Below are positions 3,527-53,746 of a DNA stretch of 64,000 bases, in pieces. The position numbers were made by a program, and so were the translations under genes. The stretch's first letter is position 1, and each line of letters begins with the position of its first letter. Source of the stretch: a virus. The notes under the pieces are model-generated. The model searched no databases and had not been told where the DNA came from. It saw only the letters and a program-made list of their open reading frames with translations. The DNA is taken from positions 62,001-126,000 of the IMG/VR virus record IMGVR_UViG_3300037333_000013. One strand, 5' to 3'.

Positions 3527-6344
3527 TATATTAGAGCTTGACCCAGTATCTGTTCAATCTGGACTGGTATCTGCGATTGAGTCGAATGACTTTATTATGG
3601 AAGACCCAACAAATCCATTGGCTATGTTACTAGAGGCAGAAGTATCTGGAATCACGGATGTCAGTGACAGTATCATAAATCTAGAGAGGAGATTGTTCCC
3701 AGCGATGTCTAGGACATTCGAAGACTTGTATCCTCACTTAGTCGATGGTGACGATATCGATATGTTTGCATCACCATCATCTACGAGTGTCCGTATGTTG
3801 ATAGAAGTGCAGACACTCTTAAATTTTGGTGTAAAAAGTGACTTTACTTATACCGCTATTATACCAAAAGAGTCAAATGTTGTGGTTGATGACGTTTCAT
3901 TTATGCTTGTGAATGACGTAAAGATAATTTTAAATACGAAGAGAGATATCTACAATGCCTTTGTCGAGTTATTACACGATGGTGACAGTGTAGAATTTGA
4001 CGATGTTGGTGCGTTGCAGACTTCTATTGTTACAGATTCAAACAATGTAGACTGGGTAATGGCAGATATACCCGTGAAACAATTAGATGTCATTATTGCG
4101 TCAGCTAGGATTATCTCTGGATATACGTTCGATAACACACAACCTTATCTAGGACAATTATATCATGTAGAGGTATATGGAAAAGACTTGAATGGTAACA
4201 CTTTTACTATTAAGAAGACATACAGTGAAGACTACTATGACCCAACAGAACCCACTGCATTTATACAACTAACTGATGATGGTTTACGTGTGCGTGTAGA
4301 CAGTATCTATTGTGGCAGTAAACTACGTGGCAATATCACCGTAAAGATATGGACAACAAATGGTAAGCTATCATTAGACTTATCTAACTTCGATACTGAT
4401 AGCTTCTCATTTATGTTGGGTGGTGTAAGTGATACTGTTGAGAAGAGTGTCAGCACAAAGTTAAATTATATTGTCTTTTCAAATAGTGTTGTGAATAGTG
4501 GCGTTGACACACGTGACTTTGAGACAGTTCGTGGTATGGTCATTAACAGAACAAACGGTAAAATGGACGCAATCATCACAGACTACCAAGTAGGTGTCTC
4601 TGGAAAGCAGTATCAGTTTGATATACATAAGTCAACTGACTTAATTACGAATCGTACATATATAGCTTCTAAAGTTTACGACAACAATAGTTTAATCGAC
4701 GCACCCACAACGGTATCAAACTTCCGTGCTAAAGTATGGTATGACGCACTGCGTGTAGATGATAAACTTATTGTTGATGATAACTATACGTTAATAAAAC
4801 CAGGTAAACTGTTTGAAGTAACAAATGGGTTATGTCAGCCTTTACAAAATGAGGTATCGGATAAATTAAAAACGCTTTCTAATGTTGAGAAACGCACGTT
4901 ACTAAACAATACAGAAGTTTTCTTTACACCATTCCTTTATATCACAGAGACAGATATTGGTGTAATAGAGAACCGTGTGTATCACATCGATACACCAAAA
5001 GCTGATTTCTTAACGATAGATGCAAAGAACACATTTATCAATATCTCTGTGAATATTGTAGATATTCATATCTTTCGTAGTGGTGATGGGTATGATGTAC
5101 TCATAGAGTTGGTTGGTAACAGTGACTATGAGAACGATAAATCGAATATTGGCATACAACTCAAGCTCTCTGGAGAGGTTGGTTCTACTTATTACCATTC
5201 TGCGATTGATGATGATAAAACATCACAATACTTCCCAACACAAGCAGGAATGCACTATATCCGTATTGACTCTTCATTATTCATTAATGAGAACGATAGA
5301 ATGGACCTGTCAAATGGGTATACTGATACTGGAATTGCTGACGTAATGATTAACGATACTGCGTCTCTTATCATATACACTACAAATGACAGTATTGATA
5401 CTTCTTCTGACACAGATGCATCAAACTTCTTATCGGATACAGATATTGTAAACAATGATGATGTAACATACGGAATTACAAAAGAACACGTTACGTTAGA
5501 GTTCGCTATTAAACTTGAACATATATGGAATAGGGTAAACCAAATTTACAATGGAAACAAATACAAAGTATATGAAAATGATGTTGAAGCAACATACGAT
5601 AAAGATATTTATGAACTAGTAGATGGAAGACCTTTTACAGTTATCAAGAATGATGATGGTAGTTGTGAGATAGATAGAAATATTATACACACAAAAGGAG
5701 ACACGATACTAGATGATGATGGAAATATTGTTTATGTGCACAGACGAGGCGACATCATCTATGATGAGTTTGGCGACCCTATCATTGACACAAGATTAGG
5801 AATCGTAAAGTATATTGATATCTTAATGCTTGAGTATAAGTATGTTGCATTCAACAACGTCTCTTATATTGCACACATCGATGACATTATAAAGAATATC
5901 CTCACAGATACGACAGAGTACTTACCAGAACTCACGAATAAATTACTAGAACGTACAGACATATTTTATAGACCTATACGAAATACGAACTATGTAATTA
6001 GTGCTAGTGATGTGATTTATGACACTATTATTTCACCAGTTGTGACATTATACATCTCTAAAGATAAAGTGTTTAACTTAAACATCGATGAACTACATAC
6101 GTCTATTGGCTCTCTATTAAACGATGCATTTAGTAACATTGATATTAATATCAGTGTATTGGAAGAGAACATTAAGTCCTCTATCAATACAGATATACTT
6201 GCTATTAACGTAAGTGGATACTCTCCTAAGAATGAGAAGCTCATACACCTCAAGTCTGACTCTAATCGTTTTTCTATCAAAAAGACAATTACGAATGACT
6301 ACTCAATCACATATGATTATAAACTTGAAATAGAGACACTATGA
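3516..6344 (+). CDS. Large virion structural protein, probably baseplate, 942 aa
   Basis: The ATG at 3516 follows GAGGAG and lies inside the end of the preceding gene. The product is long, acidic (many Asp, Asn) and beta-rich with no enzymatic motif, typical of a baseplate wedge-like protein. An Asp/Gly-rich stretch around residues 730-760 (DDDGNIVYV, DEFGDPI) hints at repeated beta units. Its size and pairing with the 352-aa structural gene support a tail role, and the specific identity is unknown. A perfect palindrome covers its stop codon and ends the transcript. Confidence 0.6.
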   Translation: MTIDILELDPVSVQSGLVSAIESNDFIMEDPTNPLAMLLEAEVSGITDVSDSIINLERRLFPAMSRTFEDLYPHLVDGDDIDMFASPSSTSVRMLIEVQTLLNFGVKSDFTYTAIIPKESNVVVDDVSFMLVNDVKIILNTKRDIYNAFVELLHDGDSVEFDDVGALQTSIVTDSNNVDWVMADIPVKQLDVIIASARIISGYTFDNTQPYLGQLYHVEVYGKDLNGNTFTIKKTYSEDYYDPTEPTAFIQLTDDGLRVRVDSIYCGSKLRGNITVKIWTTNGKLSLDLSNFDTDSFSFMLGGVSDTVEKSVSTKLNYIVFSNSVVNSGVDTRDFETVRGMVINRTNGKMDAIITDYQVGVSGKQYQFDIHKSTDLITNRTYIASKVYDNNSLIDAPTTVSNFRAKVWYDALRVDDKLIVDDNYTLIKPGKLFEVTNGLCQPLQNEVSDKLKTLSNVEKRTLLNNTEVFFTPFLYITETDIGVIENRVYHIDTPKADFLTIDAKNTFINISVNIVDIHIFRSGDGYDVLIELVGNSDYENDKSNIGIQLKLSGEVGSTYYHSAIDDDKTSQYFPTQAGMHYIRIDSSLFINENDRMDLSNGYTDTGIADVMINDTASLIIYTTNDSIDTSSDTDASNFLSDTDIVNNDDVTYGITKEHVTLEFAIKLEHIWNRVNQIYNGNKYKVYENDVEATYDKDIYELVDGRPFTVIKNDDGSCEIDRNIIHTKGDTILDDDGNIVYVHRRGDIIYDEFGDPIIDTRLGIVKYIDILMLEYKYVAFNNVSYIAHIDDIIKNILTDTTEYLPELTNKLLERTDIFYRPIRNTNYVISASDVIYDTIISPVVTLYISKDKVFNLNIDELHTSIGSLLNDAFSNIDINISVLEENIKSSINTDILAINVSGYSPKNEKLIHLKSDSNRFSIKKTITNDYSITYDYKLEIETL

Positions 6345-16148: not shown

Positions 16149-16898
16149 CTAATCCTTTGCTTCTTGTTTAATATCTTCTAACAATGTGTTGACGTCTTCT
16201 TCATTCCCTAGGTTATAAACCGGAATGTCTAGACGTCTACAATCTTTAATCACCCGAGGAACTTCAAATCCTAGTTCATCATAGTTTGTATCACGTGTTA
16301 TCTTATTCGTCCCACACTTCGACCAAACAATCATAAACTCTACAGGCTCATTTAATTTCTCACCAAGATATAGGTGCATATTCGTGGCTTTAAAAGCTTT
16401 GAAATTATAGCTGTACCCATTAAATTTATCGATAGCTTCCATTGGTTTACCATCCTTGTCTTTGGCATACTCTCCGATAATCTTACAATATAACCAAGCC
16501 GCTGCTGAGAACGCTGCATCTGTTGGTTTAGTGTGTTCTGTTGAGACTGACTTATTTACGGCTCTAAACGGCAAGAAGATTTCTTTAAATGCATAAATTG
16601 GAAAGATGACTTGTTCTAACGGATTACGGTTACTTGCACTTGCTCTAAGCACATACTGCTTCATACCGAGTGTCATCGCTATGTCGGTGATAAGCTTCTT
16701 GACGTCTTCCGGAATATCCTTACCATTATCACTTACCACACCGAAACGTTTTGTACCACGTTTCAACCCATCAACATCAATATCTTTTGCAAGATATACT
16801 TTATCTTCTTGTCCGTATGTATTGGTCTTTTTGACCGGTTGTTCTTTATCTTCTAACTTCTGTGCTGATGCTTGTTCAATTGTATCAAATATAGACAT
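16149..16898 (-). CDS. SLOG-superfamily (YspA/DprA-like) Rossmann protein, 249 aa
   Basis: From residue 45 the pattern fits phage SLOG-type proteins: KRFGVVSDNGKD at the first strand, ASNRNPLEQVIFPIYAFKEIFLP like the AxxxxxPWKGF segment, then EFMIVWSKCGT and the end RRLDIPVYNLG. In the family this fold binds nucleotides or nucleotide-derived ligands. The glycine-rich first loop is not canonical here, so binding may be lost. It sits in a minus-strand run with the RNA polymerase piece. Confidence 0.5.
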   Translation of the reverse strand: MSIFDTIEQASAQKLEDKEQPVKKTNTYGQEDKVYLAKDIDVDGLKRGTKRFGVVSDNGKDIPEDVKKLITDIAMTLGMKQYVLRASASNRNPLEQVIFPIYAFKEIFLPFRAVNKSVSTEHTKPTDAAFSAAAWLYCKIIGEYAKDKDGKPMEAIDKFNGYSYNFKAFKATNMHLYLGEKLNEPVEFMIVWSKCGTNKITRDTNYDELGFEVPRVIKDCRRLDIPVYNLGNEEDVNTLLEDIKQEAKD

Positions 16899-16933: not shown

Positions 16934-18178
16934 CTAGTAGATTAAATCATCTATCCCAATATCTAAGAGTTTGTAGTTTGTCACGTGGAACTTTGATAAG
17001 TTGTGCTTTAGTGCCATACCACCTGTCTCAGACGCAAGTAATACAACCATATATTCTAACCTAGAGAGTTCGTCACCAGCACATGTAGAGCAGAACGTAG
17101 AGCCTTTACTCTTACAGTTGTGCATTACACGCATATCGACAAAACTGTTTATGAGTGACTTATAGTTGTCTTTTGTAATCTTTACCACTTTGTTATTGTG
17201 TACATAGTTCATTCCGATTAGTTTACTAGCAAACTTCTTGGTTACTTCTATCTTACATGTCCGTCTTGTTCCACAATCACCTTTCACAACTTTATAAGGG
17301 AACATTGCTCTAAGAATAATCTTTGATAAATACCCAGAGTCTTTCGTTGAGATACCACGTTCATTCGAACCATTAATCAAGTTGTTGATAACGATAGCAA
17401 ACTCACGTTTATCTTTTGGTAAACCATCTCTCAATGACGTGACAATGATTCCTGTTCGTTCATCTGGGTCAATAGAGTCTAATACACCCACCGACACATA
17501 CTTCTTTCTGATAGATGAACCAATAATCTTATTGTCAGTTGTAATCATATAGGTAGGGTCATCTTTCAAATAGTCGTGATACTTGTCCATCACTATCTTT
17601 TCATACTCTAGAAAGACGTGTTTATTCTTAATAGAACCTTTCCCATATTTACCCTCTAACTTTTTAATAGTTTCTTTCTTAAACTTATCTAACCACTTTG
17701 GCTTTGCACTGGTCTTCCGTGTACCACTAATGACAAAGATATCGGCCATCTCCCTTAAGTATGCACATACAACACCACACTTCTTGAAACGTTTTACACC
17801 AACAAGCTCTTTGTTCTGTAATATATAGGTTGACTCTATATCATCGTAGACAAACTCTTCATTAATGTATCCATCGAATAGTCCTTCTAAACCGAAGTCG
17901 AAGTATAAGTAGTTATTGATAGCAATACCAATTGTAGTATCAATCTTCTTTGTGACACCTGAAAATACCCCTGCATCTAACGTGACTTCTGTATACTGTG
18001 TTAGTAATGGTTTATCTTTCTTTCCTGGTAATGTATACTCTACACCATTATATGTTACAGTATATCCAGAGCCATTATACTTTATATACTCGTTCTCTGT
18101 CTTTGCAAACATACTCTTGAAGAACTTTAGTTTCTCAAAGGCACCTATCTGCAACATCTTATTTAAAAACTCATTCAC
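16934..18178 (-). CDS. RNA polymerase beta-prime, C-terminal fragment, 414 aa
   Basis: Residues 275-304 (GISTKDSGYLSKIILRAMFP ... GDCGT) match the bacterial segment GLADTALKTANSGYLTRRL ... DDCGT around the bridge helix. Residues 360-405 (CSTCAGDEL ... FHVTNY) fit the end of beta-prime, where cellular enzymes have a Cys pair and then SIGEPGTQ and TMRTFH. Jumbo phages of the phiKZ type split beta and beta-prime into several genes and carry a virion and a non-virion enzyme. The complement with the NADVDGD motif is at 24973-26442. Which enzyme this belongs to is not decided by the sequence; its place among structural genes hints at the virion enzyme. Confidence 0.75.
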   Translation of the reverse strand: MNEFLNKMLQIGAFEKLKFFKSMFAKTENEYIKYNGSGYTVTYNGVEYTLPGKKDKPLLTQYTEVTLDAGVFSGVTKKIDTTIGIAINNYLYFDFGLEGLFDGYINEEFVYDDIESTYILQNKELVGVKRFKKCGVVCAYLREMADIFVISGTRKTSAKPKWLDKFKKETIKKLEGKYGKGSIKNKHVFLEYEKIVMDKYHDYLKDDPTYMITTDNKIIGSSIRKKYVSVGVLDSIDPDERTGIIVTSLRDGLPKDKREFAIVINNLINGSNERGISTKDSGYLSKIILRAMFPYKVVKGDCGTRRTCKIEVTKKFASKLIGMNYVHNNKVVKITKDNYKSLINSFVDMRVMHNCKSKGSTFCSTCAGDELSRLEYMVVLLASETGGMALKHNLSKFHVTNYKLLDIGIDDLIY

Positions 18179-18959
18179 TCTTTATCCTTTCGATTTCAGA
18201 CGGTAATATCGGAATCAACCTATTATATATATCATCTGGTGTCTTTCTAGATAACTCTTGAATGTAGCTATCATATGATGTCTCTTCTAAGAATAGATAA
18301 ACAATCGCTAGTTTTGATAGTGTCACTTGTATGTCTTCATCGTTAAATCTGATGTAGTTGACCTTATCAAAGTCATCTTTATTAATGTCTGATACGTTCT
18401 CTAGAAATACGTCTAGTGTTTCAAAGTCACAGTGTTTTACAATACGCTTCTTTATCTTCGCATATTCGATAACTCTCGATAGGTCATTGTGGTCTAACTC
18501 ATCTGTCTTTATAATAGAACGTAATAAGTCTATGGTATGCTTAGTAGCTGTGATTCCATTTAAATCAAATAGTGATACGTCTGTTTTTAGGAAGTCTGTT
18601 ACCAAATACTCAAATGATTCTGAAACAAATGTGATGCTGTCGCTGTTCTCTAGTAGTTCCTCACCAAGAGATACATCAATATCGGATAAGACAAACATAG
18701 CTTCTAAAATATCTATCTTTGTACGCATTGTATTGTCTACTTTAATATCATAATATGACAGCAGTATATCCAAGTGCCTACTATAAATATCTAATACTTC
18801 TGTGTTAATAGATGTCCCACCATACACGTCTTCTAACAGTGTTTCAAACTCTTCTAGATGGTCTTCATACTCATACTCTAGAAACAGTGATTCGATATTA
18901 TCGAATAGCGGGTAGGATAACTCATTAATTAAGTTTAATCGCAATAACTCGTCTAACAT
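18171..18959 (-). CDS. Hypothetical acidic helical protein, 262 aa
   Basis: A strongly acidic, Leu/Ile/Asp-rich, all-helical-looking protein. It overlaps the beta-prime fragment start by eight bases, so it is first in that operon and may be made with the polymerase subunit. AAAAGGAG precedes the ATG. Family not recognised. Confidence 0.6.
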   Translation of the reverse strand: MLDELLRLNLINELSYPLFDNIESLFLEYEYEDHLEEFETLLEDVYGGTSINTEVLDIYSRHLDILLSYYDIKVDNTMRTKIDILEAMFVLSDIDVSLGEELLENSDSITFVSESFEYLVTDFLKTDVSLFDLNGITATKHTIDLLRSIIKTDELDHNDLSRVIEYAKIKKRIVKHCDFETLDVFLENVSDINKDDFDKVNYIRFNDEDIQVTLSKLAIVYLFLEETSYDSYIQELSRKTPDDIYNRLIPILPSEIERIKSE

Positions 18960-19028
18960 TATATACTCCTTTTCATTAGAAAAAATATCTCTATTTCATT
19001 ACTGTGAAATAAACACAAAAGGAATACT

Positions 19029-19526
19029 ATGGGTATTAATAGAAAGTTAAATAGAAAATCAGACATCGTCACAAAGAAGAATGATAAGAAAATCATTAAG
19101 AAGATTGCTAAGGAAGATATCGAAGAGGGCTTTGACTTTAAGCAGGGTGTAGTGGATACTATAGTTGCATCACAAGGTGTTATCGCAAAATCAAACCAGG
19201 TTCAAAGTTTTGTTGGAAACATTGTTAAGGCTGTGTCGGAACAGATGACTACTGAGAAGAATGACGAGGTAATGAGAATCTTATCAGAAAAGGTAGATAC
19301 ATTAAAAGCAATCAAAACAAAGCTATTGAGAGAAACCGGAACATTAGATGTTACGACACAGATGCTCTCTGAGCATAAGAACATCATTGATAACAATGAT
19401 GATACCACACTCGTTGAGCCACTAGAGTTATACTTTACAATGCAAGAATCTATGATTATTGTTAGTGATTTGATAGATGACGTGAACATCACTATATCGA
19501 AAGATATAGATAGCGAGGTAGCATAA
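19029..19526 (+). CDS. Hypothetical protein, 165 aa, tail-type operon
   Basis: A basic N-terminus is followed by an acidic helical body. AAAAGGAAT precedes its ATG. Its last codon overlaps the start of the 471-aa gene, so it is co-translated with it. The length and helical nature would suit a tail assembly chaperone or scaffold; this is a guess from context. Confidence 0.55.
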   Translation: MGINRKLNRKSDIVTKKNDKKIIKKIAKEDIEEGFDFKQGVVDTIVASQGVIAKSNQVQSFVGNIVKAVSEQMTTEKNDEVMRILSEKVDTLKAIKTKLLRETGTLDVTTQMLSEHKNIIDNNDDTTLVEPLELYFTMQESMIIVSDLIDDVNITISKDIDSEVA

Positions 19527-20941
19527 TGAATGAGCTTAAAAATAAGAAAGATGTAAAACCGCACCTTGAGAGTGTATACGGTAAGTTCTTCTTGCCATCT
19601 ACAACCATTGAAGAGTTTGAAAAGAGAACAGTAGAGATTGAGAATATCCCAAAAAAATATGTTGTCGCAAAACGTACAGATGATGGTCGTGTCGTTAGGA
19701 GGAAAGCCTCATGGGTTGAGAAGCGTGTCGATGATGTAGACTCTACTGAACTCTTCTGTTTTGGGTTGGAGTCTAAATACCGTGGAATGGTTTCGTCCAC
19801 ACAACACGATGGAGAGTGTGGCGGTGAGTTCAAATTAAGGAATAAGAACATCCGTGGTAAGACAGGAAAAGTACTAAAGGGTGCAGATGCAGTATTGGCT
19901 GTTAGACAATCTTTAAATCTAGACAGAGAAATGTTGATACCACTCCCTCATTCACATTTCAGTATTGAACTTAGTTCTTTCTCGCCTGCCGAAAAGATTA
20001 AGCTCAGCGAGATGATTACAGAATCGTTAACCGATTATTGTAGCCAGACGCTTGGACTTATCTTCTCTCATGACAGTGTTGTTTACTACAAGGCTATCTT
20101 CCAATACTTACGCAAGAAGATTATTTCGCACACACTTATTATACCAGAAGATAAAGACATTTTAGACTACATTGATGTAAGAGATATTACTAGTATTTTA
20201 GCATACTTGTCTGCTGTGATGCACCCTAAAGGTGTAGATACCATTGTCACTTGTAGGAATAAGATGAAAGTAGACAACGAGAACGAAAAGTTACTGTGTA
20301 CAAATACTGTAACTGGTTTACTCGATGCTAAAAATATGTTGTACATTAAAGAGCAAAACATTCCAGAAAGTGGAAAGTCATTGTTACGGAAAACAAAGTC
20401 AAACTCTATCACTATTGAAGAGATGATGAAGAGTAGAGAAGAAGCACCATACCATAACAGTAAAGAGATGAAATATGGTGATAGTCTTATTATCACTGTT
20501 GAGAGTTCATCTATCAGTAAGTACCTAGAGTCTGGTGACTCTTATATTAATAGGCTCGTTGAACTCATTGATGATGCAGTGACGCTAATAGACGACCCAG
20601 ATGAGAGAAAACGTGAAGTAAACAAGTTCTTAGCTCTTCTTGTTGTGAATAGGTACAGTCACTTCATTAGCTCTGTTGAGATAGAGAATGTTGGTATCAT
20701 TACTGACCAAGAGACTATCTTTAAAACACTTGAAGACCTGCTGGAAGAATATGAGATGGGTGTGAATCTTGTTACTGACATATCTGATAGTGTCAACACT
20801 GATAAGCTCTCATATATTGGTGTATCTGCATTCACTTGTAAGGAATGTAAGAAGACAATGAAAGAGGACGATAAGATTGAATTCGATGGAACAATTGAGT
20901 TGAATGCATTAGAGGTTTTTTCAAATCTCCGTATTATCTAG
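19526..20941 (+). CDS. Probable baseplate/tail structural protein, 471 aa before a frame break
   Basis: The middle segment reads IPLPHSHFSIELSSFSPAEK, LGLIFSHDSV and AYLSAVMHPKGVDTIVTC. It resembles a block I associate with conserved myophage tail/baseplate-hub proteins that have HSGFW, then a D..L/YPxGxxxxxxC part. Near the end is a CKECKK zinc-finger-like pair. The frame ends soon after a run of six T (20916-20921) with LRII and TAG, while the minus-one frame continues smoothly for about 180 residues. The true product may therefore be about 645 residues; see the next entry. Confidence 0.6.
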   Translation: MNELKNKKDVKPHLESVYGKFFLPSTTIEEFEKRTVEIENIPKKYVVAKRTDDGRVVRRKASWVEKRVDDVDSTELFCFGLESKYRGMVSSTQHDGECGGEFKLRNKNIRGKTGKVLKGADAVLAVRQSLNLDREMLIPLPHSHFSIELSSFSPAEKIKLSEMITESLTDYCSQTLGLIFSHDSVVYYKAIFQYLRKKIISHTLIIPEDKDILDYIDVRDITSILAYLSAVMHPKGVDTIVTCRNKMKVDNENEKLLCTNTVTGLLDAKNMLYIKEQNIPESGKSLLRKTKSNSITIEEMMKSREEAPYHNSKEMKYGDSLIITVESSSISKYLESGDSYINRLVELIDDAVTLIDDPDERKREVNKFLALLVVNRYSHFISSVEIENVGIITDQETIFKTLEDLLEEYEMGVNLVTDISDSVNTDKLSYIGVSAFTCKECKKTMKEDDKIEFDGTIELNALEVFSNLRII

Positions 20942-21459
20942 TTCGTGACGGTGAGTTTAAAGCTCACCCCATTGTTAATACGGAGTATATTAATCCAATA
21001 TTGAGTGCTATATATAGCGATGACGAACACGGAGATATCTCGATAGACTTTGAACATTATGCTATGAAACCCATTAACTCCCTACTTACTGTAAACAGGA
21101 GACTAAGTGAGATTGAACTAAAGAATCTAAAGCGGTATCTATTCTTGAGTACCTTTGAATGGAATAGAAATGACAATGGGTTCTCATCTCTTACGCCTGT
21201 ATCTGTTGTTGTAGATGAGCTTGATAATTGGCTAGATTATACATACTACGAGTATCTCGTATTATACACGAGTCTTGGTGTATGGAAACACACAAAGTAT
21301 ACACTCAATGACTTCTTATCGTTGAGCTTCAAAGAGATTCATAAGATAACTGAGTCGTGTAAGTTTATCATTGATACGGAAGAGAGAATCAAAAACACCA
21401 TGAAGAAAGATGGCGACCCTGCCTTAGGAGCACTAGAAGATGAAGAAGATTTATTGTGA
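20899..21459 (+). pseudogene. Frame-shifted C-terminal part of the 19526 gene
   Basis: This frame is open from 20899 and has no ribosome site near its only early start candidate, TTG at 21001. Joined after the T6 run it reads ...ALEVF then FKSPYYLVRDGEFKAHP, which looks like continuous protein sequence, and continues to 21459. Adding one T to the run restores one frame of about 645 codons. A canonical X XXY YYZ slippery site is not present in phase, so this could be transcriptional slippage, a real mutation or a homopolymer error. If it is a separate gene, it encodes 152 aa from TTG. Confidence 0.6.
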
Positions 21460-51681: not shown

Positions 51682-51703
51682 CCTAAGGATTTACATCCCT
51701 AGG
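51682..51703. terminator. Imperfect bidirectional terminator
   Basis: A nine-position stem with one A-C mismatch and loop TTAC lies between convergent genes. The minus strand continues into a T7 run and the plus strand into TCTTTCTT. Confidence 0.5.
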
Positions 51704-53412
51704 TCTTTCTTCGTTCTTTGTAGTGCCTCCATCACTACCATCTTAAACCGTCCATCTTCATCCGTTAGATGGTCTATAATCTTCTCTAACCCTATAATTC
51801 CATCTGTCGGCAATCCTCGTAATCTTAACCACTCTAGTGTGCCTGGAAGGCAGTTACCAGCACTCTTGCTTGTTTCCATCGTTACCAATGGACATGCTAA
51901 GTCAGAGACTCTCTCGAACTCTCTTTTTAGCATTGATACAGGTTTAGTATCTAACCATTTCAGGTGAGCTTCATTAGCATCACTAATAGCATAGGCAATG
52001 CGGTTAGAAGTTGAGTGGTATGTGAAGCCGTCATCGAACTCGATGACGAATCCATCATATATGTACGGTGTATTAACCCACTGGGCTTTGTGTATTTTTA
52101 GACCACCACGTACAAATGTACGTAATATCGCCGTTTCAACACCGTCAACTATAGTCTTCTCAGACTTTAACCATCCCAGTATTAATGAAGTTTCCTCAAA
52201 AATCCCTCTCTTTGATGGGTGCCTCCAGTCAGAGTCCTCTCTTAACCACCCTGGAACAAGGCATTTGTCATCATGTCTCATTCTTCTAGTCCAATAGACA
52301 GCATCATTGTAGTTACCACAAAAGTCTACAACTTTACCTTTACTGGCTTTTTGGATTGCCAGCTTATCTATTGACGCTTTGTGGTGGTCAAAGGTTCCAC
52401 GCCAATATCCCTCGCACCAAGATTGGCGATTGAGCAGGTCACCAAGCTTTAGGTTAAGCTCTTTAAGCTTAGGCATAAACTCTACCAGAGCTTGTCTTGC
52501 TCTTTGGTAGCTTGATGTCACTACGCCAGCTCTGTTAGCTAGCATAATGATTACAGCCTTTCTAGGGACTAGACTGTAGCCCATAGCATCAAGAGCAAGC
52601 TCATATGACACATTACGCCCTGTGATGCGTTTGAATGCATCAACCACTTTCCAGAGCATATTGTCTATCGCTTGTGGTGAAGCGAAGAACCCACGCTCCT
52701 TGAATAGAGTGTATTCAAAGAGAGGCTTTCCAGTATGTGGGCTGTTAGCACCACACCCTGAGTATGCCCTTCTCTGGATTTCAAACAGGGGGCTATACCC
52801 ATCAGCCATTGAAATGGCTTTGTGGAACCCAACAAACTCTCTGAGCTTTATGACTTTCATCCCTCGTTCAGAGTGTCTGCATTCAGTTCCATACTCGAAC
52901 CCAACACTACGGACGAACTCCGTTACCGTGTTGTGTTCGAAGTATGGGTATATATTCCCAATATCACCACCAGCTATTGACCAGAGCTTTCTTAACCCAT
53001 AGCTGGTATCACACTTGACAAGGTTGTCAAGTGTGATAGTTGGACGTTCGTCCAATGGGGATACCCATACGTCTCCCCACACTGGAGCTGGGTCGCTCCA
53101 GTTTTTTACTTCTTCCGAGTGCCTGCTCGGAAGAAATTCAGCTACGAATGCTCTCGCGTTCGTAGCTGAGGCAGTCTTAACTGCTTTTCTCTTTGCGTCA
53201 TAAGACGCAAAGAGAGTCTTGTTCTTTTTGGCACGTTTCCGTGCCAAATTGGCACGTCTTCGCAGACGTGCCTCCTTTAGTGCTGACTTAAAGTCAGCAC
53301 TAATTACCTCCTCTACTAGAGGAGCAGAAGCTCCTCTAGTAGAAAGTTTAGGAGAGCCTGTAGACTCTCCTAGGAATGTAGAATAAATATCTTTATTTGT
53401 AACTTGTCTCAT
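51691..53412 (-). CDS. Hairpin-rich gene for an unknown basic protein, 573 aa
   Basis: ATG 53412 (MRQVTNKDIYS) has GAAAGG before it; a GTG at 53460 in frame has none. Residues about 15-135 are low-complexity with a Lys/Arg-rich stretch (RLRRRANLARKRAKK); their DNA is a row of thirteen hairpins (53007-53372). The remaining 430 residues are globular, Trp-rich, with QSWCEGYWRGTFDHHKAS and SKSAGNCLPGTLEWLRLRGL, which I cannot assign. The gene looks more GC-rich than its surroundings and lacks their AT-rich codon habit, so it may be acquired. A long structured leader and an early-type promoter precede it. Confidence 0.7.
   Translation of the reverse strand: MRQVTNKDIYSTFLGESTGSPKLSTRGASAPLVEEVISADFKSALKEARLRRRANLARKRAKKNKTLFASYDAKRKAVKTASATNARAFVAEFLPSRHSEEVKNWSDPAPVWGDVWVSPLDERPTITLDNLVKCDTSYGLRKLWSIAGGDIGNIYPYFEHNTVTEFVRSVGFEYGTECRHSERGMKVIKLREFVGFHKAISMADGYSPLFEIQRRAYSGCGANSPHTGKPLFEYTLFKERGFFASPQAIDNMLWKVVDAFKRITGRNVSYELALDAMGYSLVPRKAVIIMLANRAGVVTSSYQRARQALVEFMPKLKELNLKLGDLLNRQSWCEGYWRGTFDHHKASIDKLAIQKASKGKVVDFCGNYNDAVYWTRRMRHDDKCLVPGWLREDSDWRHPSKRGIFEETSLILGWLKSEKTIVDGVETAILRTFVRGGLKIHKAQWVNTPYIYDGFVIEFDDGFTYHSTSNRIAYAISDANEAHLKWLDTKPVSMLKREFERVSDLACPLVTMETSKSAGNCLPGTLEWLRLRGLPTDGIIGLEKIIDHLTDEDGRFKMVVMEALQRTKKDLGM
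53007..53372. repeat. Array of thirteen distinct tandem hairpins inside a coding region
   Basis: Perfect or near-perfect inverted repeats follow one another: 53007-53038 (15 bp), 53040-53055 (7), 53055-53068 (5), 53081-53102 (8), 53110-53135 (10), 53138-53169 (11), 53171-53184 (5), 53188-53215 (12), 53227-53248 (9), 53251-53272 (9), 53277-53303 (13), 53312-53343 (14), 53349-53372 (8). Centres are mostly 2-6 nt, several of 4 nt. Stem sequences differ, so they are not copies of one element. They lie within the 5' third of the 573-aa gene, in frame. Smaller ones recur downstream, at 52029-52048 (9 bp) and 52108-52123 (7 bp). Confidence 0.9.
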
Positions 53413-53746
53413 CCGAGACCTTTCACTATTTGACCTATACGAATACCGTGTAGCTTTCACATCACGTATCTATTAATCCATCAGTGCTTTGTATAGTGTT
53501 CTCTGTAACTCCTGCCAATGGCTCGGTAGTTACTTTCTACATCGATAGATGCTTACTAACTATAACAAAGTTTACTAATAGTAGACTTCGGTCTGGCGTT
53601 ACCCTGTTTACGTGTTCATAAACGTTCATCTTCAATCACCATAGAGCAGGTGTGCCTTGGGTCATCATATCCTGAGTTATGGGATACTCTCCAGAGAAGA
53701 TATAGAGTTTATACAATAGCAGTCGCTATCCATCACACTCTTGCAT
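53413..53746 (-). other. Long structured 5' leader of the hairpin-rich gene
   Basis: About 334 nt between the promoter and the start, with no credible small gene. It holds further stems: 53505-53533 (GTAACT...AGTTAC with inner GCC/GGC), 53583-53594 (AGAC/GTCT), 53606-53623 (GTTTA/TAAAC) and 53716-53729 (ATAGC/GCTAT). Other early-type leaders here are 50-115 nt. It may be a regulatory or noncoding RNA. Confidence 0.5.

Follow-up and report, generated by a model that had tools for sequence, protein, structure and literature searches.

The sequence analysed here, referred to as the window, is the 64,000-nt stretch at positions 62001-126000 of a 164,667-bp IMG/VR virus record (IMGVR_UViG_3300037333_000013). 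A frame break lies on its plus strand, in a gene whose neighbours include phiKZ-type RNA polymerase subunits and a DNA polymerase (Table 1). The gene order at 16934-21459, comprising an opposite-strand RNA polymerase subunit (16934-18178) and gp79-like gene, a small gp78-like gene, gp77 and a downstream ORF, is shared with relatives. Adjoining the phage RNA polymerase gene, the minus strand at 16152-16898 encodes a protein of 249 aa whose PHROG match is DprA-like (E 4.5e-9).

Table 1. Features at the frame break, in window coordinates.
Feature	Position	Strand	Basis and remarks
Zero-frame gene, phiKZ gp77 family (PHROG 4585)	19526..20941	+	ORF, 471 aa; proposed short product of a frameshift pair
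T6 run, shift site	20916..20921	+	Sequence; corresponds in position to the Phe-Phe T-run conserved in the 41 other loci
-1 frame extension	20920..21459	+	Frame and alignment; 179 sense codons from TTC 20920, stop TGA 21457-21459
Stem-loop	20927..20985	+	Outer perfect 10-bp stem 20927-20936/20976-20985, inner hairpin 20950-20968; probable stimulator
Zero-frame stop TAG	20939..20941	+	Sequence; 8 codons past the shift-site GTT, within the stem-loop
152-aa ORF, TTG start	21001..21459	+	What a gene caller would list; start considered an artefact

The zero-frame stop sits 18 nt past the T6 run, at which the zero-frame codons are GTT 20915, TTT 20918 and TCA 20921. The -1 frame is free of stops from 20899 to its TGA (186 codons, 180 of them from 20917) and reads FFKSPYYLVRDGEFK... 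from the T-run onwards; the chance of 180 stop-free codons is about 1e-6 at this base composition. A predicted fusion of the two frames comprises 465 and 179 residues, i.e. 644 aa. The initial annotation had described a 471-aa frame ending just after six T with the -1 frame continuing for 180 codons, had noted that one extra T would restore a single gene, and had seen no in-phase canonical X_XXY_YYZ heptamer; on the sequence all of this holds, the extra T joining both frames.

The 471-aa protein matches PHROG 4585 (E 2.5e-48, residues 110-465), and tblastn matches of the gene were found in the phiKZ-like phages FLC9, JM-2012, pVa-21, FBKp24, 201phi2-1, EL and others. When 201phi2-1 gp136 was used as query, the gp77 family was recovered from 197 phage records, including those of phiKZ (gp77 itself) and SPN3US. 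The -1 extension, which weakly matches PHROG 7580 (E 0.06, residues 99-166), is the counterpart of downstream genes annotated separately in phiKZ-like phages (PHROG 7580/12109). Sequence and gene order both place the window gene in the phiKZ gp77 family, from which it differs in its non-canonical site, in a shorter zero-frame tail and in an insertion of about 14 residues after the Phe-Phe pair, which encodes most of the stem-loop. A DNA-level phage search and single-protein scans of IMG/VR matched no close relatives of the window phage; the RNA polymerase subunit found one distant 20.8-kb contig in IMG/VR, and no gp77-like gene was found there.

The junction was compared across 42 loci, namely the window, 27 annotated phages and 14 IMG/VR contigs, with phiKZ, 201phi2-1, EL, Goslar, SPN3US, PCH45 and JM-2012 among them. 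In 42 of 42 the second ORF lies in the -1 frame and can be read without a stop from a point before the Phe-Phe T-run, the open -1 frame passing through the gp77 stop by 43-361 nt. The gp77 frame terminates 8-47 codons past the T-run, which is 5-8 nt long in all loci, and the second ORF spans 153-272 codons. Alignment of homologues across the junction, proposed as a check in the initial annotation, agrees with its view of the two frames, as the same -1 shift is required in 41 of the 41 other loci; in phiKZ, for instance, the predicted fusion would follow the zero frame up to TTT TTT and continue with the -1 sequence YFGGLEVKPDGV. The upstream pair of genes, gp78 and gp77, served as a control in 26 of these genomes; there the frames vary (14/7/5) and every start is ATG.

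An in-phase canonical heptamer is present at 36 of the 42 junctions (U_UUU_UUU in 27, U_UUU_UUC in nine). The remaining six carry G_GUU_UUU_U (the window), G_UUU_UUU (FLC9 and contig L035), A_UUU_UUC (PS119XW) or CUU_UUU_A (pVa-21/JHP1101), and in all six re-pairing of tRNA-Phe one base back is still possible. Moreover, codon choice around the Phe-Phe pair is strongly biased. Among 32 de-duplicated loci with Phe-Phe, the preceding codon ends in T in 29, against 9.5 expected (P 3e-15), and the first Phe codon is TTT in all 32, against 12.7 expected (P 8e-15), the expectation being taken from the codon usage of the same genes and relatedness being only partly removed. The amino acid before the pair is of nine kinds (V, I, T, G, L, Y, A, N, S). 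A T-ending codon followed by TTT is demanded by a heptamer for tandem slippage and not by the protein sequence.

The window carries a degraded version of this shift site. G_GUU_UUU_UCA is non-canonical, only one tRNA re-pairing well: tRNA-Phe on UUU 20918-20920 could re-pair with UUU 20917-20919, and the phase of the T6 run is exactly that required for a -1 shift. A related site, U_UUU_UCC, has been reported as a natural -1 site in P. anserina (PMC5009743). The stem-loop begins 6 nt past the shift codon, a spacing usual for -1 stimulators, and its arms were also recovered by a repeat search. Its predicted stability is -21.8 kcal/mol (z -4.9), equalled by 0 of 200 shuffles, while a longer stretch around the site reaches a z of only -2.75. 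In a coarse scan of the whole sequence, z fell below -4 in 150 of 6394 scan windows, so comparable stems occur elsewhere and the chance of finding the stem alone is a few per cent. No other member of the gp77 family has an equally strong downstream stem (family mean z -0.39), a search for conserved downstream RNA structure across the family found none, and an Rfam search at the shift site gave no match. A second inverted repeat of 11 nt (20925-20935/21026-21036) could pair with the 5' arm of the stem-loop, so that the two structures may compete.

We propose that the window gene is very probably decoded by programmed -1 ribosomal frameshifting. The majority of ribosomes would terminate at the zero-frame TAG and release the 471-aa protein, and a minority, with tRNA-Phe on UUU in the context U_UUU_UCA, would slip back one base, assisted by the stem-loop, and would make the fusion of about 644 aa. 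The site of the window is thus presumed to be functional despite its non-canonical heptamer. Ribosomal frameshifting had been set aside in the initial annotation because the window lacks a canonical heptamer, in favour of transcriptional slippage, mutation or sequencing error. Its reading of both frames as one expression unit stands, and the homologues, to which it had deferred, settle the question; the candidates that it named do not fit a -1 shift common to 41 other loci, 36 of which have the canonical heptamer.

One such candidate is an error of sequencing or assembly, or a mutation in the contig, whereby the true run would be T7 with a plain fusion, or the gene a broken copy. The sequence does come from a single metagenomic contig, and one further T would give its site the canonical GTT TTT TTC present in Wellington, SPN3US and vL030. 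However, T7 would produce an in-frame fusion, an arrangement found in 0 of the 41 other loci, whereas T6 yields precisely the -1 relation common to all of them, and a strong stem-loop stands at stimulator spacing. An error or mutation is hence unlikely, and the frame break is real and best read, from the sequence comparisons, as a programmed -1 ribosomal frameshift.

In transcriptional slippage, RNA polymerase would add or drop bases at the T-run and the resulting mixed mRNAs would encode both products. Every locus has a run of 5-8 T, and transcription in these phages relies on a multi-subunit RNA polymerase of their own, with subunits encoded near the gene. Runs of T5, T6 and TTTTTTC are nevertheless short in comparison with known cases of slippage. 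Furthermore, the run holds codon phase (U_UUU_UUY) and in most loci begins with the wobble position of the codon before it, neither of which slippage needs, and this explanation appears very unlikely.

The second ORF was said in the initial annotation to have no start site of its own. This is only partly correct for the window, where TTG 21001 and ATG 21064 exist; neither is preceded, at normal spacing, by a Shine-Dalgarno core, the GGAG upstream of TTG 21001 lying about 15 nt away and inside the 3' arm of the stem. Homologues in which the second part is a separate gene with its own start, the arrangement that would speak for two genes, do occur in the database records of annotated phages. Yet the starts listed there by gene callers are TTG, GTG or late ATG codons, their position differs from phage to phage, and a Shine-Dalgarno core accompanies the first possible start in just seven of the 42 loci. 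In phiKZ, the 218 nt past the gp77 stop contain no ATG, GTG or TTG, and the gene listed from the ATG that follows (PHIKZ076.4, 81 aa, at 3979-4440 of locus L044) is missing the first half of the conserved domain and is probably mis-annotated.

Between the gp77 stop and the possible starts, the -1 frame encodes conserved peptides, e.g. GHV.FP.FG (GHVLFPSFG-like) in LucasX and contigs L032, L033, L038 and L042, and DPKASRLKIDL in 201phi2-1 and Viktualia. Synonymous and non-synonymous changes in this region are few throughout and stand at 4:1 for vL037/vL039, at 3:2 for pVa-21/JHP1101 and at 9 to 13 for SA002/SNUABM48, where purifying selection is not clear; the pair 201phi2-1/Viktualia, misaligned in its codon register, was left out of these counts. 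Two separate genes, the second starting at TTG 21001 or ATG 21064 and perhaps re-initiated after the first stops, are highly improbable given such scattered and poorly equipped starts, even with a GGAG at hand and separate entries in the databases. Judged by sequence comparison, the same -1 relation, selection on the T-run at the nucleotide level and the lack of usable starts are established across the gp77 family.

Programmed frameshifting of this form has parallels in known systems. As in lambda G/GT, one gene would give a short protein and a longer -1 frameshift product, and the first-frame product is not noted as a virion protein (in 201phi2-1, mass spectrometry is noted for gp138 but not for gp136). 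Unlike lambda, the first part in the gp77 family is 470-690 aa long with Cys-x2-Cys motifs, against about 140 aa, the slippery site is U_UUU_UUY, and there is no Pfam match to chaperone families; in addition, gp77 does not lie between the tail-tube and tape-measure genes, and the genes around it encode RNA polymerase subunits, gp78- and gp79-like proteins and unknown proteins. Membership of the lambda G/GT type is not claimed because gene position and sequence do not fit. In dnaX (tau/gamma), too, the -1 shift takes place at a homopolymer that is followed by a stem-loop, but dnaX uses A_AAA_AAG and an upstream SD-like stimulator, of which none is evident at the window site, and its shift gives the shorter product, whereas here it would give the longer one.

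The initial annotation had called the gene a probable tail or baseplate gene, an assignment with which the predicted fold agrees. When the AlphaFold2 model of the 471-aa protein (pTM 0.66) was searched with Foldseek, the matches beyond its own family were T4-like baseplate hub assembly proteins as well as subunits of the baseplate hub (E 8e-6 to 1e-3, target TM 0.5-0.6); proteins named tail assembly chaperone matched weakly (E > 0.2), and a search of the same model against the PDB gave no match. For the second part the model was poor (pTM 0.40), and its top Foldseek matches were the downstream genes of jumbo phages, RP12 and Psa21 among them (E 0.01-0.1, prob 0.85-0.99). In Pfam, neither the window protein nor the family members match PF12322, T4_baseplate (gp26/gp51). 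As far as fold prediction can tell, the first part resembles T4-like baseplate-hub assembly proteins. By analogy with lambda gpG/gpGT, the short and long products probably form a tail-assembly chaperone pair made in a set ratio.

A comparable junction is found in T4-like phages of the cyanophage type. In IMG/VR (loci L050-L129), gp26 of this type ends in U_UUU_UUC, as (AGT|TCT|GGT) TTT TTC, in 77 of 77 readable loci, with a -1 ORF that runs through the gp26 stop. Among the loci listed, a single codon separates this motif from the stop, and in the 20 listed for the -1 ORF its length is 63-67 codons from the shift site. The ORF is the counterpart of the short cyanophage 'gp51', which according to an earlier comparison lacks the first ~200 residues of T4 gp51 (PMC3037559). 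In one GenBank cyanophage, Synechococcus phage S-SCSM1 (locus L049, 1471-2374), gp26 also ends with T_TTT_TTC, but the short gp51 is in the +1 frame.

PMC3004832 lists both gp26 and gp51 of T4 as chaperones of hub assembly. T4 gp26, like the gp77 family, has a Cys-x2-Cys motif and Phe-Phe near its C-terminus; unlike that family, T4 has two separate genes. Both T4 proteins belong to PF12322, so gp51 looks like an in-frame long form, and its last part is 33% identical to the cyanophage -1 peptide over 36 residues (E 4e-5 for the pair). On the simplest reading, duplication has given T4 two genes, gp26 and gp51, that stand for the short and the long product of the frameshift. An hhalign comparison of the gp77 family with PF12322 was not significant (probability 3-16%), and the downstream part of the phiKZ family had no significant sequence match to the gp51 tail of T4 or cyanophages; the putative link between the T4 and phiKZ families rests on the predicted fold and the shared site. 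A -1 shift at a single Phe-Phe T-run could be an ancient trait of the tail or hub assembly chaperone of contractile-tailed phages, a proposal to which we give about even chances. It would have been kept in phiKZ-like phages and in T4-like phages of the cyanophage type, and replaced in T4 by duplication, with gp26 as the short and gp51 as the in-frame long form; in the window lineage, an inserted stem-loop would compensate for a weakened site.

Frameshifted tail chaperones are already known, and the one proposed here would be a variant shared by many phages of a family that lacks such an annotation. The open literature searched contained no report of frameshifting in phiKZ-like phages, and beyond that literature priority is unproven. 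In the available parts of a review of frameshifting and of the PRFect paper, neither phiKZ nor jumbo phages are mentioned. Phages of the phiKZ-like group are the main model of nucleus-forming phages. One gene that they widely share seems to be wrongly annotated throughout the group, its second half appearing as a gene of its own with an improbable start, and cloning, deletion or tagging of phiKZ gp77 or its neighbour would involve the wrong protein.

Elsewhere in the window, a very unusual array of about a dozen consecutive hairpins occupies 52960-53380 (421 nt, dG -224 kcal/mol, z -17.7). It is not a tandem repeat and matches no Rfam family above threshold. Most of the stems are near-perfect and 8-15 bp long, with loops of a few bases and sequences that are all different, and the array overlaps the 5' part of a minus-strand ORF at 51691-53460.
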